Shown here: positions 10,598-16,875 of the stretch, piece by piece
Layout of the letters: every line of letters starts with the position of its first letter
How positions within the stretch are numbered: the stretch's first letter is position 1
Assembly (NCBI RefSeq): GCF_900176425.1
Contig: NZ_FWXS01000003.1
Coordinates: 248,001 to 312,000 of the forward strand
Reading direction: 5' to 3'
DNA from: Moheibacter sediminis
Lineage (GTDB): Bacteria > Bacteroidota > Bacteroidia > Flavobacteriales > Weeksellaceae
DNA: 64,000 bases
The notes under the pieces: generated by a model
The model's input: the letters and a program-made list of their open reading frames with translations, nothing else
Databases searched by the model: none
What the model was told of the DNA's origin: nothing
Translations under genes and position numbers: made by a program

Positions 10598-10920
10598 CTC
10601 AAAACGGAATAAAAATCCTCTATAATGTCAAGTTCCGTGCGAAATGCAAGCATCTTGTCTGCGAACTTTTCAAGAGACTTTTGTTGCAGCATGGGTGCGA
10701 AATTGTCCTGATAATCCTGTAAATCTTCTTTTGAGTGGCAAACGTATTGTGCTGAATAATTTTGACTTCCGTCTTCTTTGTGGGAAGTAAGTTTAGAAAA
10801 TCTGCATGAGATGAATTTACCTGTATTCATGACTTCGGGAATATGCGTTTTGCGCATCCAATGGAGCCATTCTGTTTCTATTTTTTCGTCTATGTTGATG
10901 GTTACGTTGTAAATGATCAT
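10594..10920 (-). CDS. DUF4286 family protein
   Basis: A 108-residue cytosolic protein of the DUF4286 family, which is widespread and uncharacterised in Bacteroidota. It starts MIIYNVTINIDEKIETEW and has the HIPEVMNTGKF segment. The fold is probably a ferredoxin-like alpha/beta barrel half (ABM-like). It is convergent with the nucleoside phosphorylase gene, whose stop codon it overlaps by 4 bases. Confidence 0.85.
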   Translation of the reverse strand: MIIYNVTINIDEKIETEWLHWMRKTHIPEVMNTGKFISCRFSKLTSHKEDGSQNYSAQYVCHSKEDLQDYQDNFAPMLQQKSLEKFADKMLAFRTELDIIEDFYSVLS

Positions 10921-11245
10921 TTGAAATCTATTTCTGAAACGAAGATAAAGGATTTAATTTAAAAACTTGAAGATTGGGAAATTTCAAAATCTAAAACTGT
11001 ATTTTTAAAATAAGAAAATGGGTCGTGCCGGAATGCTTTTCTAATGCAGGTTTCAGAGATTATTTAGAATGATTGTGCGTTAGCCAACGCGAGTGAAGGA
11101 AATGACAATATAAGTGAAGAACTTACCTAGGCGAGTAAAGAAGCTGCCATCGTGAGTGCAGGGAATGACATGGCTAGTGCAGGAGTAGCTAAGAGGATTG
11201 TAGAATTACTTAGTGGAGTGCGTATTAAACTCTGATAGTTTAATT
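10921..11245. other. Intergenic region with degenerate repeats
   Basis: No gene was seen. The segment 11030-11215 contains degenerate direct repeats, best seen as GCGAGTGAAGGAAATGACA (11089-11107) and GTGAGTGCAGGGAATGACA (11152-11170), with partial units near 11131 and 11174. Read on the minus strand these begin TGTCATT and look related to the dispersed repeats near 22690, 26885 and 60319. Confidence 0.5.
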
Positions 11246-11276
11246 TATATTTGTGCTATCAACCTTAAAAATAATC

Positions 11277-11849
11277 ATGAAACAAATAATTGTTTTAATA
11301 TTTTCATTGAGTATTTTATTTTTCTGCAATTGCAAAGGACAAGAAAAAGAAAAATCTTTAAAAATTACTGATTTTGAATTTAATTTGATATTCGGATCGA
11401 ATGCTAATTATCCCAAAAACACTTATTGTTTACTGGGTTCAGGTTTTTTTAGACCGCCCAGTGCAGAGAATACTAAGAGTTTAATAAGTGAATGGTTAAA
11501 AAAGCACCCAGATGCTATAGTCGTTTCGGTATCTTCTTTTGGACCTGTAGATGTTGATGAGCCTGAATCTAAAATTGTTTATAGTTGGGTAATTGATAAG
11601 CAAGATACATTGAACAATTATTTAATCAGAAATGGTAGTTTTCCAGGTGGAACCATGATGAGACCAAAAACTTGGGATGAAATGGAAAAATGGCAAAAGG
11701 AATTGTATGAGGATAGTGATGAAAAATCTGATGTAGAAGTTTATATCGATCACAAAACGTATGATAATTTCATAGAACAAATAAAAAGTGCTGAGCTATA
11801 CGCAAGGAAAAATAAGGTTAGAATCTGGAAAAATGAGGGAGATGAATAG
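11277..11849 (+). CDS. Lipoprotein of unknown function
   Basis: A 190-residue protein with a lipoprotein signal (MKQIIVLIFSLSILFFCNC; the acylated Cys is the one at about residue 17 or 19). I do not recognise the mature part, which has a conserved-looking GSGFFRPPSAENTKSLISEW segment and a basic C-terminus (ELYARKNKVRIWKN). The ATG at 11277 is preferred because TATATTTG at 11246-11253 acts as a -7 element and would overlap the earlier TTG at 11253. It stands 18 bases before the CrtA-like gene. Confidence 0.72.
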   Translation: MKQIIVLIFSLSILFFCNCKGQEKEKSLKITDFEFNLIFGSNANYPKNTYCLLGSGFFRPPSAENTKSLISEWLKKHPDAIVVSVSSFGPVDVDEPESKIVYSWVIDKQDTLNNYLIRNGSFPGGTMMRPKTWDEMEKWQKELYEDSDEKSDVEVYIDHKTYDNFIEQIKSAELYARKNKVRIWKNEGDE

Positions 11850-11867
11850 CAATGTAAGAATTAATTC

Positions 11868-12578
11868 ATGAGTGTATTTACTTTTCATCTTGCCACCACA
11901 ACATTTACTTCCGGGTTAAAGGGAATTATAAATCCAACTGTTCTAAAAAATATTCCTGGATTGTTGCATGCTGAATGCATGACTACTATGACATTGGGGG
12001 CTCCACTATTTTCCCAATCACGAATATTGATCGGGGAATTGGCTGTGTTTGCGCAATGGGAAAATGAAGAAGCAATAGATAATTTTTTAGAGAATGATAA
12101 GTTTGGGAAAATGCTGGCAACGGGTTGGCATACGCGTTTATTGTTTTTGCGTCAATGGGGAACAATAAGTGGATTTGAAATGCCTGAAGAAGTCGATGAA
12201 TTGAATGATGCGGATGCTCCTGTGGTTGCATTTACCCTTGCACGCATGAGGCTTTTGCAGGTTCCGAGATTTATTCATTGGGGCAGACCTGTTGAAAAAT
12301 TGGTGCGTGACCATCCCGGAATTACGTTGGCGTTGGCTGCTATCCGATTTCCGAATACTGTTTCAACTTTTTCAGTTTGGAAATCTCAAAAGGAAATGAC
12401 AGATATGGTTCATGGTCACAGTGCTGTTGAGAAGCCGCAACGTCATGCACAAGCAATGAAAGAACGAGACAGGAAAGACTTTCACTATGAATTTACGACT
12501 CTGCGTTTCAAACCGGTTGCGGAATATGGTGTGTGGAAAGGTCGTAGTCACATTATCCCAAATCTAAATTCTAAATAA
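11868..12578 (+). CDS. Spheroidene monooxygenase (CrtA)-like protein
   Basis: A 236-residue protein with the overall pattern of the CrtA/spheroidene monooxygenase-like family: an N-terminal half with AVFAQWENEEAIDNFLEN, and a C-terminal half with FSVWKSQKEMTDMVHGHSAV and EYGVWKGRSHI. CrtA adds keto groups to acyclic carotenoids, but no other carotenoid genes are nearby, so the substrate is open. It ends with TAA directly followed by the ATG of the next gene, indicating tight coupling. I recognise the family only moderately well. Confidence 0.55.
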   Translation: MSVFTFHLATTTFTSGLKGIINPTVLKNIPGLLHAECMTTMTLGAPLFSQSRILIGELAVFAQWENEEAIDNFLENDKFGKMLATGWHTRLLFLRQWGTISGFEMPEEVDELNDADAPVVAFTLARMRLLQVPRFIHWGRPVEKLVRDHPGITLALAAIRFPNTVSTFSVWKSQKEMTDMVHGHSAVEKPQRHAQAMKERDRKDFHYEFTTLRFKPVAEYGVWKGRSHIIPNLNSK

Positions 12579-13445
12579 ATGAAATTGGCTTCTCCCAAGC
12601 AAAATTTTCAGGATTGGTTTACGCAGCAATGGGCTATCTTTTGGGGCAAGGAAATAGAGTCGAATGATGTTCCTTGGCTGATGGGGGCATTTGGGAAACC
12701 CGGAGCAAAAGCCGATGATTTCATACATGAAATTGCGAAAGACAAAGTTTTGGAAATTGAAAGAAATACTGCATCAAACGGACTTTTGGCATCTATTCAA
12801 GATTTGAATTTTTCAAGTGAAGAATATAACCGTCTTTCCAAAAATGTTGTGGATTTCTACGAAAAAACTGCGGACTATGAATTGAGTTTTGCTGTAAAAT
12901 GGAATCCTTTTTTTAAGTTTTTTGGGAAATTGATTAATTATTTATTCAGCAATAGAATTAATCAACTTAATGTACCAACTAATAATTTTGAAAGTTCAAA
13001 TCAAATCAAGAGTGAAATCATCCGACTCGTAAATCCTGAATCTAAGGAGGTAAAATATACTGTTTGGTACCGAACTTTTGAATCGACTCAGCAGGTTTTA
13101 TATTCAGGTATTTATTCTACTTGTGAACTTCCTTCGGGGAAAACCTGTATCAAAGCCGTGTTTCCCTTGCCCAATGGAAACGCTACGGTCATCATGACGC
13201 CGAGTGTAGGTGTAAACGGGGAACTGCTTTTGATTTCATCGGGGAAAAAGTTTGGTGATGCGGGTTTTTATTTTTTGCTCAATGATTCTAAGGGTAGATT
13301 TTGGTCTCAATACATCCGTTCTTTTCAGGATCGCTTAATTGTGAGTTCTGTGGGTGAAAAGTTGGTGGCAACGCAAAAGTTGACGCTTTGGAATTTGAGG
13401 GTTTTGGAGTTTCAATATGAAATTAAGAGAAAAGGGGAAGATTGA
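12579..13445 (+). CDS. Hypothetical protein coupled to the CrtA-like gene
   Basis: A 288-residue protein with no signal peptide and no family that I recognise. Its N-terminus is Trp-rich (NFQDWFTQQWAIFWGKE), there is a hydrophobic segment around residues 107-122 (FFKFFGKLINYLF), and the C-terminal half is beta-rich with GNATVIMTPSVGVNGELLL. The ATG directly abuts the stop of the CrtA-like gene, so the two are surely translated together. Confidence 0.7.
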   Translation: MKLASPKQNFQDWFTQQWAIFWGKEIESNDVPWLMGAFGKPGAKADDFIHEIAKDKVLEIERNTASNGLLASIQDLNFSSEEYNRLSKNVVDFYEKTADYELSFAVKWNPFFKFFGKLINYLFSNRINQLNVPTNNFESSNQIKSEIIRLVNPESKEVKYTVWYRTFESTQQVLYSGIYSTCELPSGKTCIKAVFPLPNGNATVIMTPSVGVNGELLLISSGKKFGDAGFYFLLNDSKGRFWSQYIRSFQDRLIVSSVGEKLVATQKLTLWNLRVLEFQYEIKRKGED

Positions 13446-13471
13446 TTCTACTTTCTTATAAATCAAACCAA

Positions 13472-13503
13472 TTTGTAATTCTAAATCCAAATACGTATTT
13501 TTG
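13472..13503 (+). promoter_or_regulatory. Promoter of the DUF6364-PIN operon (TTTG-N20-TATTTTTG)
   Basis: TTTG at 13472-13475 and TATTTTTG at 13496-13503 are 20 bases apart. The antitoxin ATG follows at 13521. Confidence 0.7.
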
Positions 13504-13520
13504 AAAATAAAACACGTATA

Positions 13521-13763
13521 ATGACAACTAAACTTACATTGACTGTCGAGAAATCTGTTATTGAACGGGCAAAGTCTTATGCAAAAAGTACCGGACGAAG
13601 TTTGTCTGAATTGATAGAGAATTATTTGGAGACGATTACCCGTGAAAATGGAGACCACGAACTTTCTCCAAGATTAAAAAAAATTGTCGGCGCAGTAAAT
13701 CTTCCTGCAGATTTTGATGAAGAAACTGAATTGAGATCTGCTATGGAAAAGAAACATCTATGA
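13521..13763 (+). CDS. DUF6364 family antitoxin
   Basis: An 80-residue protein of the DUF6364 (ribbon-helix-helix-like) antitoxin family. The N-terminal TKLTLTVEKSVIERAKSYA strand-helix is followed by TGRSLSELIENYL, the typical DNA-binding RHH layout; the acidic C-terminus (ADFDEETELRSAMEKK) is the likely toxin-binding tail. It overlaps the PIN gene by 4 bases and has its own promoter, so it probably autoregulates the pair. Confidence 0.85.
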   Translation: MTTKLTLTVEKSVIERAKSYAKSTGRSLSELIENYLETITRENGDHELSPRLKKIVGAVNLPADFDEETELRSAMEKKHL

Positions 13764-14173
13764 AAAAAGTATTTCTTGACACGAACATAATTGTCGATTT
13801 AATTGCAGACAGAAAGCCTTTCAGTAAATATGCAATTGAAATATTTCAACTGGCGGAAGAAAATAAATTGCAGATTTTCACTTCCTCACATTCTATTGCA
13901 ACTACACATTATTTACTTAAAAAATATCTGGACGAAAAATCGCTTCGTGAGGTTTTGTATAATCTGCTTGATTTTATAACAATTATTGTTGTTGATACCG
14001 ATATAATCAAGAAAGGTCTTCGTTCCAATTACAAAGATTTTGAAGATGCTATCCAAATCTTGTGCGCTTCGTCTATTGAAAACATCAATTGTATCATTAC
14101 TCGTAACGGAAAGGATTTTAAAGGAAGTGAAATTCCGGTTCTAAGTCCGGACGAGTTTTTTTTGAATTTGTAG
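13760..14173 (+). CDS. PIN-domain toxin (VapC-like RNase)
   Basis: A 137-residue PIN-domain protein. The acidic metal-binding residues expected for a ribonuclease are visible: D7 in KVFLDTNIIVDL, an acidic residue in the centre, and DFEDAIQILCA with a downstream RNGKDFKGSEIPVLSP. Together with the 4-base-overlapping DUF6364 gene it forms a type II toxin-antitoxin pair; the toxin would cleave RNA when the antitoxin is lost. The unit lies immediately upstream of the retron-like system. Confidence 0.87.
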   Translation: MKKVFLDTNIIVDLIADRKPFSKYAIEIFQLAEENKLQIFTSSHSIATTHYLLKKYLDEKSLREVLYNLLDFITIIVVDTDIIKKGLRSNYKDFEDAIQILCASSIENINCIITRNGKDFKGSEIPVLSPDEFFLNL

Positions 14174-14266
14174 GTTTTTATGACTTGATTACAATCAGAT
14201 AAATAATTTAAATATTTTTACTTAATCACATATAAGCATTTAAGTTCCATTTTTAGTAATTTCATC

Positions 14267-14274
14267 TATATTTG
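14267..14274 (+). promoter_or_regulatory. -7 element of the retron-like operon
   Basis: TATATTTG at 14267-14274 matches TAnnTTTG; no clear -33 TTG at the right distance. The ATG of the first gene lies at 14309. Confidence 0.5.
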
Positions 14275-14308
14275 TGTAACTGTAATACTTGAAAAGCACA
14301 ATACTAGA

Positions 14309-15166
14309 ATGAGTAGTGAAAAATCAATATCTTATTTAATTGAACTTGATAAGATTTTTGAAGAAAAAAAATGGAAAGAAAAAGAAAATTATACTGATGT
14401 ATTCGAAGCATTGTCAAATTTTTCGAATATAGTATTTGAAAATGATGAGGAATATAATTTATTTCTTGAACTTTTAGAAAGATTTCATTGGATATCATTA
14501 AATGATTATTATAACGCTTGTAGACAGTTATTAATCGATTTGATTACAGAACTCAACACAAATAATCAAAATATTTATATTTTTCCAATAATTACAAAAG
14601 TCCAACAATCGAAAGTCAAAAGTGGAAATTTTATTGCATATCTAATAAAATCTTTGATACCAACCATCCCAAATAGTGATGTATATAAATTCGAAGATAT
14701 TAATGCTTTTTCCCAAATACCTAACATTAGATTTAGGAAATCAGATATTTTACTCTTAGTTGATGATTTTATAGGTAGCGGTGAGACATTGGAAAATTGT
14801 ATAAAAGATATTGGAACTACTAATAAGAATATTGGAGATAAAATTAGAATATTAACAATTGCTATTCGGATGGATACTCATGAGAGATTGTCGAAAAAAT
14901 ATAAAATTTATAAAAATATAGAAGTCTTAAAAGGAATATCAGATTATAATACTGGAGATGATGTTTTGGATAAAAAAAATGTAATGAGAAACATTGAAAA
15001 AAGAATTTTCACATCAATTGACGAATATTCGTTAGGTTTCAAGGAATCTGAAAGCTTAATTACATTATTGAGAACTCCTGACAATACTTTTCCCATATTT
15101 TGGAGCAATTATAAAAAACAAATAAATTTAAGACCACCTTTTCCAAGACAGTATGAAAAAATTTAA
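14309..15166 (+). CDS. PRTase-like retron-associated protein (probable effector)
   Basis: A 285-residue protein with a phosphoribosyltransferase-like core. The diagnostic PRPP-loop motif is DILLLVDDFIGSGETLENC (146-164, with VDDFIGSGET at 151-160), preceded by KVQQSKVKSGNFIAYLI (97-113). The N-terminal 80 residues are helical and acidic. There is no signal peptide or membrane span. Downstream come a small protein, a structured non-coding segment and a reverse transcriptase, so this is most likely the effector or nucleotide-processing part of a retron system. PRTase-like partners are known in retrons; substrate and action are not established. The region is AT-rich. Confidence 0.8.
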   Translation: MSSEKSISYLIELDKIFEEKKWKEKENYTDVFEALSNFSNIVFENDEEYNLFLELLERFHWISLNDYYNACRQLLIDLITELNTNNQNIYIFPIITKVQQSKVKSGNFIAYLIKSLIPTIPNSDVYKFEDINAFSQIPNIRFRKSDILLLVDDFIGSGETLENCIKDIGTTNKNIGDKIRILTIAIRMDTHERLSKKYKIYKNIEVLKGISDYNTGDDVLDKKNVMRNIEKRIFTSIDEYSLGFKESESLITLLRTPDNTFPIFWSNYKKQINLRPPFPRQYEKI

Positions 15167-15479
15167 TAATAATGAATTATATCAATTATTACATATAATT
15201 TGTAATAATGGCAATATTCGAAGACTAGTTAGGGAAGACATAACTTTTATTGAAGTTATTGATAATATTAAAGAATTAACGTTAAAAGGAATACTAAATT
15301 ATCAAGATGCAAAATTATCTTTAACAAAAGACGGTCTAAAACTTTTTGATGAATTATCAGCGAAATACAAAAATATAGATAAAGATAAATGGATTGAGAA
15401 AGAGGAGAAATCAAGATTGGAACATAAAATTGAAATAGATTTTATATATTTACCTGACCAAAATAAATTATATTTTTAA
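15153..15479 (+). CDS. Small winged-helix-like retron accessory protein
   Basis: A 108-residue protein overlapping the PRTase-like gene by 14 bases. The first 75 residues look like a small winged-helix: helix LYQLLHIICNNG, VREDITFIEVIDNIKELTLKG, then LNYQDAKLSLTKDGLKLFDEL, which has the strand-wing pattern of PadR/MarR-like folds. A charged C-terminal tail (KWIEKEEKSRLEHKIEIDF) follows. A DNA-binding or adaptor role linking effector, msDNA and RT is inferred from position and predicted fold. Confidence 0.65.
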   Translation: MKKFNNNELYQLLHIICNNGNIRRLVREDITFIEVIDNIKELTLKGILNYQDAKLSLTKDGLKLFDELSAKYKNIDKDKWIEKEEKSRLEHKIEIDFIYLPDQNKLYF

Positions 15480-15484
15480 TATAA

Positions 15485-15633
15485 TATGGGATGTGAGTCA
15501 CTAACCCTTATTTGGGAACTAAATTTCAAGCTCAATGAGCTTGTAACTAAGCAAAATCTCCGATATTTGCTTAGTTAAAGCTCATTTTTCCGTTTGGGAG
15601 TAATTAATTACTCCCAAACATAAAGGAAACTTT
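15485..15633 (+). ncRNA. Candidate retron msr-msd RNA
   Basis: The 160-base gap before the RT gene is dense in secondary structure. There is an 8-bp stem CAAGCTCA/TGAGCTTG (15527-15534, 15536-15543, tip bases open in practice). Next comes a perfect 12-bp stem TAACTAAGCAAA/TTTGCTTAGTTA (15544-15555, 15566-15577) with a 10-base loop. A perfect 28-base palindrome follows at 15592-15619. The segment CCCTTATTTGGG (15505-15516) can also pair imperfectly with CCCAAACATAAAGG (15614-15627), a candidate a1/a2 closing helix. The exact ends and branching G are not determined. Confidence 0.7.
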
Positions 15634-15639
15634 TTTTGT

Positions 15640-16716
15640 ATGGTAGATTTTGAATTATATAAAAAACATTTTAGAGAAAAGGCACTTAATATTGGGTTTT
15701 CAGAGGAAATTATAATTAAATGTCTAAATTATAGTGAAAATTTGGTATCGAAAAAATTACCGATTATTTATAATTCATATCATTTAGCTGGATTAGTAGG
15801 ATACCAACATTCATATTTAAGTAGAGCTATAAATTCAACTGAATTTTTCTATAGAAAATTCAAAATTCAAAAAAAAAACGGAAATTTTCGTGAAATCTCA
15901 GAACCTCTTCCTAGTTTAAAAGAAATTCAATATTTTATTCTTGAAGAAATTCTCTACAAGCAAAAGGTCAGTAGATATTGTAAAAGTTATACTCCTAAAA
16001 GAAAATTTAGAGAATATTTAAAATATCACACTAACGAAAAACAAATTTTGACATTGGATATTGAAGATTTTTTTCCTTCGATTAAATTCAATAATATTTT
16101 TAATTATTTCCTTGCATTAGGATATGCTAAAGATGTCTCCTATTATTTATCTAATCTTTGTACATATGTAACAAAAGGAAAAAAGGGTCAAAGAGTTAAT
16201 ATTTCAAATAGATATTTACCACAAGGTGCACCTACAAGCCCTTATCTATCAAATCTAATTTTATCAGAATTTGATGATTCAGTCGCAAAATTTTGTATTC
16301 AAAATCAGCTCAAGTATACTCGTTATGCGGATGATATGACCTTTTCAGGAGGTAATATAAATAAAGAAGACTTAATAACCTTTATAATAGTAGAACTAAA
16401 TAAAATTGGTTTGAGATTAAATATCGAAAAAACCAATTTTATGAAACAAAATGTACCACAAATTATTTCTGGCGTAATTGTTAATAAAAAAGTCCAATTA
16501 CCTAAAGCCGAAAGAAATAAAATACGAAATTCAATGTATTACATTTCAAAGTTTGGATTAGAAGATCATCTAAAAAGGACAAATGAAGAGAGAAATTATT
16601 ATGTATTTCATCTTATAGGTAAAATACAATATGGACTTTCACTAAATCCTGAAGATTTAGAATTAAAACGATACAAGGAGATTCTAATCGAAGAGAAAAA
16701 AAAGTACTATAGCTAA
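15640..16716 (+). CDS. Retron-type reverse transcriptase
   Basis: A 358-residue group II-like reverse transcriptase of retron size. RT motifs in order: KFKIQKKNGNFREISEP (73-89), YTPKRKFREYL (117-127), catalytic ILTLDIEDFFPSI (136-148, D140), LPQGAPTSPYLSN (193-205), YADD (229-232), GLRLNIEKTNFM (257-268), IISGVIVN (275-282, at the place of the VTG motif of retron RTs) and the C-terminal GKIQYGLSLNP (327-337). There is no maturase or endonuclease domain, so it is not a group II intron RT. It would copy the RNA encoded just upstream into msDNA. The canonical NAxxH of region X is not evident. Composition is strongly AT-rich. Confidence 0.92.
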   Translation: MVDFELYKKHFREKALNIGFSEEIIIKCLNYSENLVSKKLPIIYNSYHLAGLVGYQHSYLSRAINSTEFFYRKFKIQKKNGNFREISEPLPSLKEIQYFILEEILYKQKVSRYCKSYTPKRKFREYLKYHTNEKQILTLDIEDFFPSIKFNNIFNYFLALGYAKDVSYYLSNLCTYVTKGKKGQRVNISNRYLPQGAPTSPYLSNLILSEFDDSVAKFCIQNQLKYTRYADDMTFSGGNINKEDLITFIIVELNKIGLRLNIEKTNFMKQNVPQIISGVIVNKKVQLPKAERNKIRNSMYYISKFGLEDHLKRTNEERNYYVFHLIGKIQYGLSLNPEDLELKRYKEILIEEKKKYYS

Positions 16717-16875
16717 CGGCTAAATAGAAGTTTAAGATGAATTGAAATTTTCTGTTTCGATTTCCGCCACATTCGCCAAGTCCCAAAATGTTACTAAACA
16801 ATCTTATTCCCCTTCCAATTTCAGAATTTAAAATGAATTTGTTACATTAGCTTTTTATATCAAACAAAAGTAAAA

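Follow-up and report, generated by a model that had tools for sequence, protein, structure and literature searches.

The type III-A retron locus

The window, i.e., the 64,000-nucleotide stretch of Moheibacter sediminis DNA analyzed here, carries an operon for a PRTase-like predicted effector, a winged-helix (WH) accessory protein and a reverse transcriptase (RT) in this order, and a gap between the end of the WH gene (15479) and the RT start (15640) separates the latter two (Table 1). All three proteins match PADLOC profiles of type III-A retrons, a type that reportedly belongs to the retron classification of Mestre et al. from 2020. For the RT, the top five PADLOC profiles are all RT_III-A; it also matches Pfam RVT_1, its YADD catalytic core is seen as RYADD in the alignment, and NCBIfam NF038233 (retron St85 RT) matches at E 6.2e-61 with 206 bits, short of its cut-off of 235 bits. 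Drt2 (E 7.6e-15) and a group II RT model (E 1e-16) also match weakly, which could be taken to mean that the RT belongs to another class of defence RTs (DRT or group II-like) and that the RNA in the gap is the template of that class, but the type III-A RT profile scores 465.6 bits compared with 55 (Drt2) and 61 (group II), and both partner genes are type III-A partners, so that we regard such an assignment as extremely improbable. The RT of the window carries ISG for VTG and YLKYH at the NAXXH-like motif, and its four closest relatives are alike in kind; in the other aligned RTs VTG is found in 11/11 and the N of the NAXXH-like motif in 10/11. Besides ISG and the Y-for-N replacement, RTs in the clade of the window carry additional residues around position 185 (RT gene at 15640-16716). 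Validated retrons with substitutions at both the NAXXH and the VTG motif are on record (PMC6868368).

The genome of the window contains one copy of the RT, and at E 1e-60 RT_III-A matched none of the five other genomes of the genus. At the corresponding site in all five congeners, blastn places the sequence that matches the window from ~16,822-16,843 onward only 53-119 nt from a match ending at window positions 10,881-10,968, and the peptidase downstream of the retron is a flank of this gap site. By these alignments, ~5.9 kb (roughly 10,966-16,835), the retron included, is a block missing from the five congeners. Also within the block are unknown genes and a ribbon-helix-helix/PIN pair; the genes immediately before the retron (13521-14173) are those for a DUF6364 protein, which is weakly ribbon-helix-helix-like, and for a PIN-domain protein, and these likely form a type II toxin-antitoxin pair. 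A promoter was sought in 13401-16800 with TANNTTTG, which we take to be the Bacteroidota-type consensus; the search gave TATATTTG at 14267 with no TTG in the preceding 30 bases. As there was no usable promoter match, the RNA is assumed to be co-transcribed with the PRTase gene.

Table 1. Genes and RNA elements of the retron locus (positions within the window).
Feature	Position	Strand	Description
Retron-bearing block	10966..16835		Edges approximate; by blastn absent at the corresponding site in 5 congeneric genomes
PRTase-like predicted effector	14309..15166	+	285 aa; PADLOC PRTase_III-A, E 2.4e-85; Pfam PRTase-CE PF24390, E 4.9e-17
WH accessory protein	15153..15479	+	108 aa; PADLOC WH_III-A, E 3.2e-35
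Retron ncRNA (msr-msd), core	15483..15629	+	Covariance model score 142.2 bits (E 5.8e-29), with the window among the 17 training rows
P1, first hairpin, msr side	15488..15507	+	GGGATGTGAGTCACTAACCC; GGG..CCC outer, GTG-AGT-CAC inner; aligned in 17 loci
TTTGGGAAC, contains the conserved GNGAA segment	15511..15519	+	Between P1 and TTTCAAGC; four invariant columns (15514, 15516-15518) in the 17-locus alignment
TTTCAAGC motif	15524..15531	+	Invariant across the 17 aligned rows
P2, long hairpin	15534..15586	+	Outer AATGAGCTT/AAGCTCATT, inner TAACTAAGCAAA/TTTGCTTAGTTA; from the fold
P3	15587..15629	+	TTTCC/GGAAA base enclosing the palindrome hairpin 15592-15619; 5-nt bulge on the 3' side; from the fold
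Retron RT	15640..16716	+	358 aa; PADLOC RT_III-A PDLC02942, E 2.1e-140; RYADD and QGAPTSP present

Related loci

The RT_III-A profile was run over whole genomes and matched 25 of 395 genomes of the phylum set and 35 of 320 of the family set at E 1e-60, and 9 of 395 of the order set and 6 of 395 of the class set at E 1e-95; the sets share members with one another, and the genome of the window is among them. The window RT alone as query found no relatives in genome contigs and viral contigs. A 16-row RT alignment as query yielded 80 loci from genome contigs, the best of 253 confirmed, and 57 loci from viral contigs, of which L137 is close. At E 1e-40, the plasmid and phage collections gave only distant RTs, with identities of at most 40% and 35%. 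The set of 82 loci used in the following consists of the window, L057-L136 and L137. It contains near duplicates (L128/L130 and L110/L111/L113/L115), its RT starts were set by a script, mostly at the nearest ATG, and the upstream sequence is short in some loci, with 274 nt before the RT in L118 and less than 1.8 kb in L071, L126 and L130. Among the best 80 of 253 loci, the closest relatives are from Chryseobacterium and Kaistella (L057-L060) with 64-69% RT identity, and other relatives are from Flavobacterium, Mucilaginibacter, Pedobacter and some Clostridia. For the structural comparison, 17 loci that are near the window and have readable anchors were picked by hand and aligned with MAFFT; 4/17 are from Chryseobacterium/Kaistella and several others are mutually close, and as the rows are thus partly closely related, the counts given below are counts of sequences and not of events.

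A conserved RNA fold between the WH and the RT gene

A first-pass annotation of the gap had suggested an msr-msd RNA with more pairing than expected by chance, and the amount of pairing was borne out: as RNA, 15485-15639 has a minimum free energy (MFE) of -54.8 kcal/mol compared with -26.8 +/- 3.3 kcal/mol for dinucleotide shuffles (z -8.5), and 0/200 shuffles reach the value. Two of the hairpins listed there are exact, namely the 12-base arms at 15544-15555/15566-15577 with a 10-base loop, and the palindrome at 15592-15619. P1 was missing from that list; it is conserved in the relatives, starts 8 nt downstream of the WH stop codon and uses the CCC at 15505-15507, bases that had been assigned to a1. 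The gaps inspected share the order P1, GNGAA segment, TTTCAAGC, P2 and P3, followed by the RT, and the pattern T?TTC[AG]AGC occurs within 320 nt before the RT in 74/82 loci compared with 84/4,100 mononucleotide shuffles.

RNAalifold recovers P1, P2 and P3 from the 17-locus alignment. In this alignment 91.6% of the cells are paired compared with 78.5% in shuffles, 17 of 29 pairs have changes on both sides, and no measure was reached by any of 500 shuffles; when the partners are slid by one column, pairing falls to 58-60%. The changes on both sides affect 2/6 pairs of P1, 8/10 pairs of the inner P2 helix and 6/9 pairs of the P3 hairpin, in which three base pairs (UCC/GGA) are invariant. The outer half of P2 was left out of this column-by-column count because it is poorly aligned.

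The remaining short hairpin of the first-pass annotation, an 8-bp stem CAAGCTCAATGAGCTTG at 15527-15543, fared less well. The complementarity is present, but arms of eight bases would leave a loop of a single base, so that at most seven pairs can form; as a part of the fold the stem was not sustained, since it shares GAGCTT with the outer half of P2 (15534-15586) and competes with P2. In 15488-15629 the unconstrained MFE structure (-53.7 kcal/mol) takes the short stem and is 2.6 kcal/mol better than the family fold (-51.1 kcal/mol). Energy alone is therefore indecisive, and conservation decides for P2: the short stem, beginning with CAAGC, reaches at least six pairs in 9/82 loci, namely the window, L057-L060 and four others, and the 38 loci inspected fold with the longer P2 hairpin. 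Two direct repeats are found in the region, TTTGGGA at 15511-15517 and 15593-15599 and AAGCTCA at 15528-15534 and 15578-15584, which let the hairpin arms take a second partner in the msr part and may give alternative folds; they were seen mainly in the window's clade.

Hairpins between two genes could also act as an intrinsic terminator or attenuator, and a run of seven T (15631-15637) follows one base past the TTTCC/GGAAA base of P3 and eleven past the palindrome stem. However, such a T run is present in 0/4 of the closest relatives although P3 is kept, and a terminator leaves P1, P2 and TTTCAAGC unexplained. Rfam, searched with permissive settings, gave as its sole match an antisense His_leader at E 0.23, below the gathering score, which was taken as chance. 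We consider a terminator or attenuator highly improbable as the explanation of the hairpins, and it would moreover be compatible with a retron RNA.

A covariance model of the retron RNA was built from the window and the 16 relatives of the alignment. At E 0.01, 62/82 sources are matched, each once and always ahead of the RT in the same orientation as the RT gene, and 20/82 are without a match at this threshold; as the structure of the model was taken from the alignment, the matches of those 17 rows are by construction, and outside the training set 45/65 sources are matched. In 57/62 cases the match ends no more than 26 nt from the RT start (three overlap the RT by 1-7 nt), and in the remaining 5/62 it ends 81-131 nt before the RT. 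In 56 loci of more distant RTs no match was found at E 0.01, and four matches up to E 1 (best 0.06) are all on the opposite strand. Over the whole genome of the window the model has one match at E 0.001, and it is the 15483-15629 element (E 3e-28). PADLOC has msr-msd models of its own (PMC9252829).

The conserved fold and the model matches upstream of RTs bear out that the segment was correctly read as an msr-msd RNA. It is a well-supported retron RNA of a known type, and we are highly confident that the DNA between the WH gene and the RT gene encodes the structured ncRNA of a type III-A (III-A1) retron. The first-pass annotation was right on what the RNA is and wrong on part of its fold. A gap without annotation and without an Rfam family above the gathering score can thereby be assigned a defined retron RNA, the fold of which is supported by covariation, and the corrected fold matters for mapping or engineering its RT-DNA.

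Candidates for the a1/a2 helix and the priming guanosine

The fold proposed at first had paired CCCTTATTTGGG (15505-15516) with CCCAAACATAAAGG as the a1/a2 helix, in combination with the 15527-15543 hairpin. The two segments are complementary, with the partner at 15613-15626, one base off the place given originally; the complementarity is genuine and kept in the window as well as in L057-L060, and a compensating change, CCTA/TAGG for CCTT/AAGG, was noted in L057 in our own reading, and the short stem of this fold is the one that also appears in the unconstrained MFE structure. As a1/a2, however, the pairing did not hold up, because it needs the 3' arm of the palindrome and thus breaks the palindrome hairpin. 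The resulting energy of -36.8 kcal/mol exceeds the free MFE (-53.7 kcal/mol) by 17 kcal/mol and that of the family fold by 14 kcal/mol. An arm test, which spans more than the exact bases of 15505-15516/15613-15626, compared the best duplex between the 17 nt before TTTCAAGC and up to 75 nt before the RT with shuffles and with arm swaps between loci. Over the 82 loci it gave no excess pairing (mean z -0.12; z<-2 in 3/82), and after the shuffle and swap tests this a1/a2 was dropped for the family. Together with relatives that have a clear a1/a2 and carry it outside P1-P3, this makes the fold proposed at first very unlikely, and the family fold with P1, P2 and P3 is preferred.

Within the window's own clade the arm test gave z -1.6 for the window and -1.5, -1.2, -1.2 and -2.2 for L057-L060, and the own segment ranked 24 for the window and 5, 4, 5 and 3 for L057-L060 among 81 arm swaps. 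Judged from these sequence comparisons, the proposed pairing appears weakly favoured in this clade, and since it is strongest there, it may have a clade-specific role in the window and L057-L060. A family-wide pairing of the GNGAAC segment with the 3' arm of P3 was considered as well and dropped, because L071, in our own reading of the alignment, alters P3 and not the GNGAAC segment.

A duplex search of flank against flank gave a mean z of -0.57 with 11/82 loci below -2, and nothing for the window (z -0.2) or L057-L060. Perfect complementary stretches outside P1-P3 were compared with 100 shuffles, and 20/82 loci had p<=0.05 (~4 expected) and 16/82 p<=0.01 (~1 expected). The longest such stretch of the window is 5 bp (p 0.99) and nothing was found in L057-L060 (p 0.41 to 1.0), with very A+T-rich flanks that weaken the test in these loci. 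Long a1/a2 stretches outside P1-P3 were seen in L116, L120, L125, L126, L128, L130, L132, L134 and L135; many of these distant loci are from Clostridia, and several of the stretches are followed by AGA or directly by G. According to a retron review, the priming guanosine directly follows a1 (PMC6868368), and a G directly after the a1 stretch is found in L116, L120, L125, L126, L128, L130 and L132. The distant loci with long a1/a2 are good entry points for placing the priming G.

Comparison with known retrons and proposed mode of action

Retrons are a known class of bacterial anti-phage systems, and the kind of the feature described here is already known (III-A1). With respect to the type III-A retrons represented by the PADLOC models, the window has the same PRTase, WH protein, ncRNA and RT; no differing part was found, and neither in the window nor in L057-L060 is a1/a2 visible. 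L057-L060 share the RNA fold and the WH gene before the RNA and differ in the P2 loops, L060 also in the P3 sequence. Retron-Eco1 (Ec86) likewise has a structured RNA in the RT cassette, with msr hairpins followed by the msd. In its description the msd is one long hairpin, and the 5' end of the RNA is paired with the 3' end, next to the priming G (PMC6868368). In contrast, the window has two hairpins between TTTCAAGC and the RT, and a pairing of the ends was not found in it.

Experimental data on the type come from a study in E. coli, which describes RT-DNA from all retrons tested except Ppe1, including the III-A retrons Retron-Bpu1 and Retron-Sda1, whose ncRNA is termed type III-A1 (PMC12548924). 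According to this study, transformation of E. coli with the III-A Retron-Ppe1 was not possible, for which the authors presumed toxicity, and the III-A Retron-Bpu1 did not protect E. coli from a panel of 12 phages (PMC12548924). Retron-Sda1 from Sphingobacterium daejeonense is, compared by description, similar to the system of the window in being from Bacteroidota and in having a III-A1-like RT and a type III-A1 ncRNA, and it makes RT-DNA, whereas HipA and DUF3037 replace the PRTase and the WH protein (PMC12548924). Among the literature matches listed, none deals with a Chryseobacterium-type retron RNA or with how the PRTase acts, and most subscription papers are outside the coverage of this search.

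From established retron biology, the RT would be expected to bind the msr part, i.e., P1 and the conserved motifs, and to prime from a guanosine 2'-OH close to the 5' end of the RNA. The 3' part would then be copied backwards into RT-DNA, P3 first and perhaps P2. The resulting RT-RNA-DNA complex together with the WH protein would keep the PRTase-like effector inactive; phage infection would disturb the complex, and the effector would then stop the cell.

The WH C-terminal tail in loci without a detected effector

Searches with iterated profiles detected the PRTase and the WH protein upstream in 50 of the 81 relatives, the WH protein only in 6 and neither in 25; L118, one of the loci without PRTase, is uninformative since only 274 nt precede its RT. 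In 27 of the 31 relatives without a detected PRTase, a short ORF just before the ncRNA corresponds to the C-terminal tail of the WH protein (L081, L082, L084-L089, L091-L098, L101, L102, L104, L106, L109-L113, L115 and L121, nearly all from Flavobacterium). These ORFs start with Met in 26/27 cases; 16 of these 26 have 41 codons and the rest 39-50, and three carry C-terminal extensions. The tail ORF of L086 matches positions 67-101 of the 101 positions of WH_III-A (E 3.5e-7). From 11 non-overlapping pairs out of 23 copies, pN/pS was 0.079/0.344 = 0.23, with L088, L089, L096 and the Met-less L084 excluded and pairs with fewer than three differences skipped; L092/L093 is the one pair with pN > pS. 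These substitution patterns point to selection on the tail ORF at the protein level.

In 48 full-length WH proteins the conservation is 0.47 in the tail third, 0.43 in the first third and 0.37 in the middle. For Retron-Sda1, the C-terminus of DUF3037 is reported to be similar to the DNA-binding protein found in close III-A1 retrons (PMC12548924), and this similarity together with the tail conservation suggests an adapter. We put forward tentatively, at somewhat less than even odds, that the C-terminal tail of the WH protein might be a portable adapter coupling effectors to the RT-RNA-DNA complex, and that the Flavobacterium loci, in which it is conserved on its own as a protein of ~41 residues, might be retrons that lack an effector, are possibly domesticated and have a micro-protein as partner. 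The set of 82 loci thus raises the question why many Flavobacterium keep RT, RNA and tail peptide without a predicted toxin. The integrity of the RT was checked in part of these loci, and in L093 a stop occurs early in the RT. A gene that we read from its sequence as CbpA/DnaJ-like lies downstream in 7 of 10 inspected among the 31 loci.
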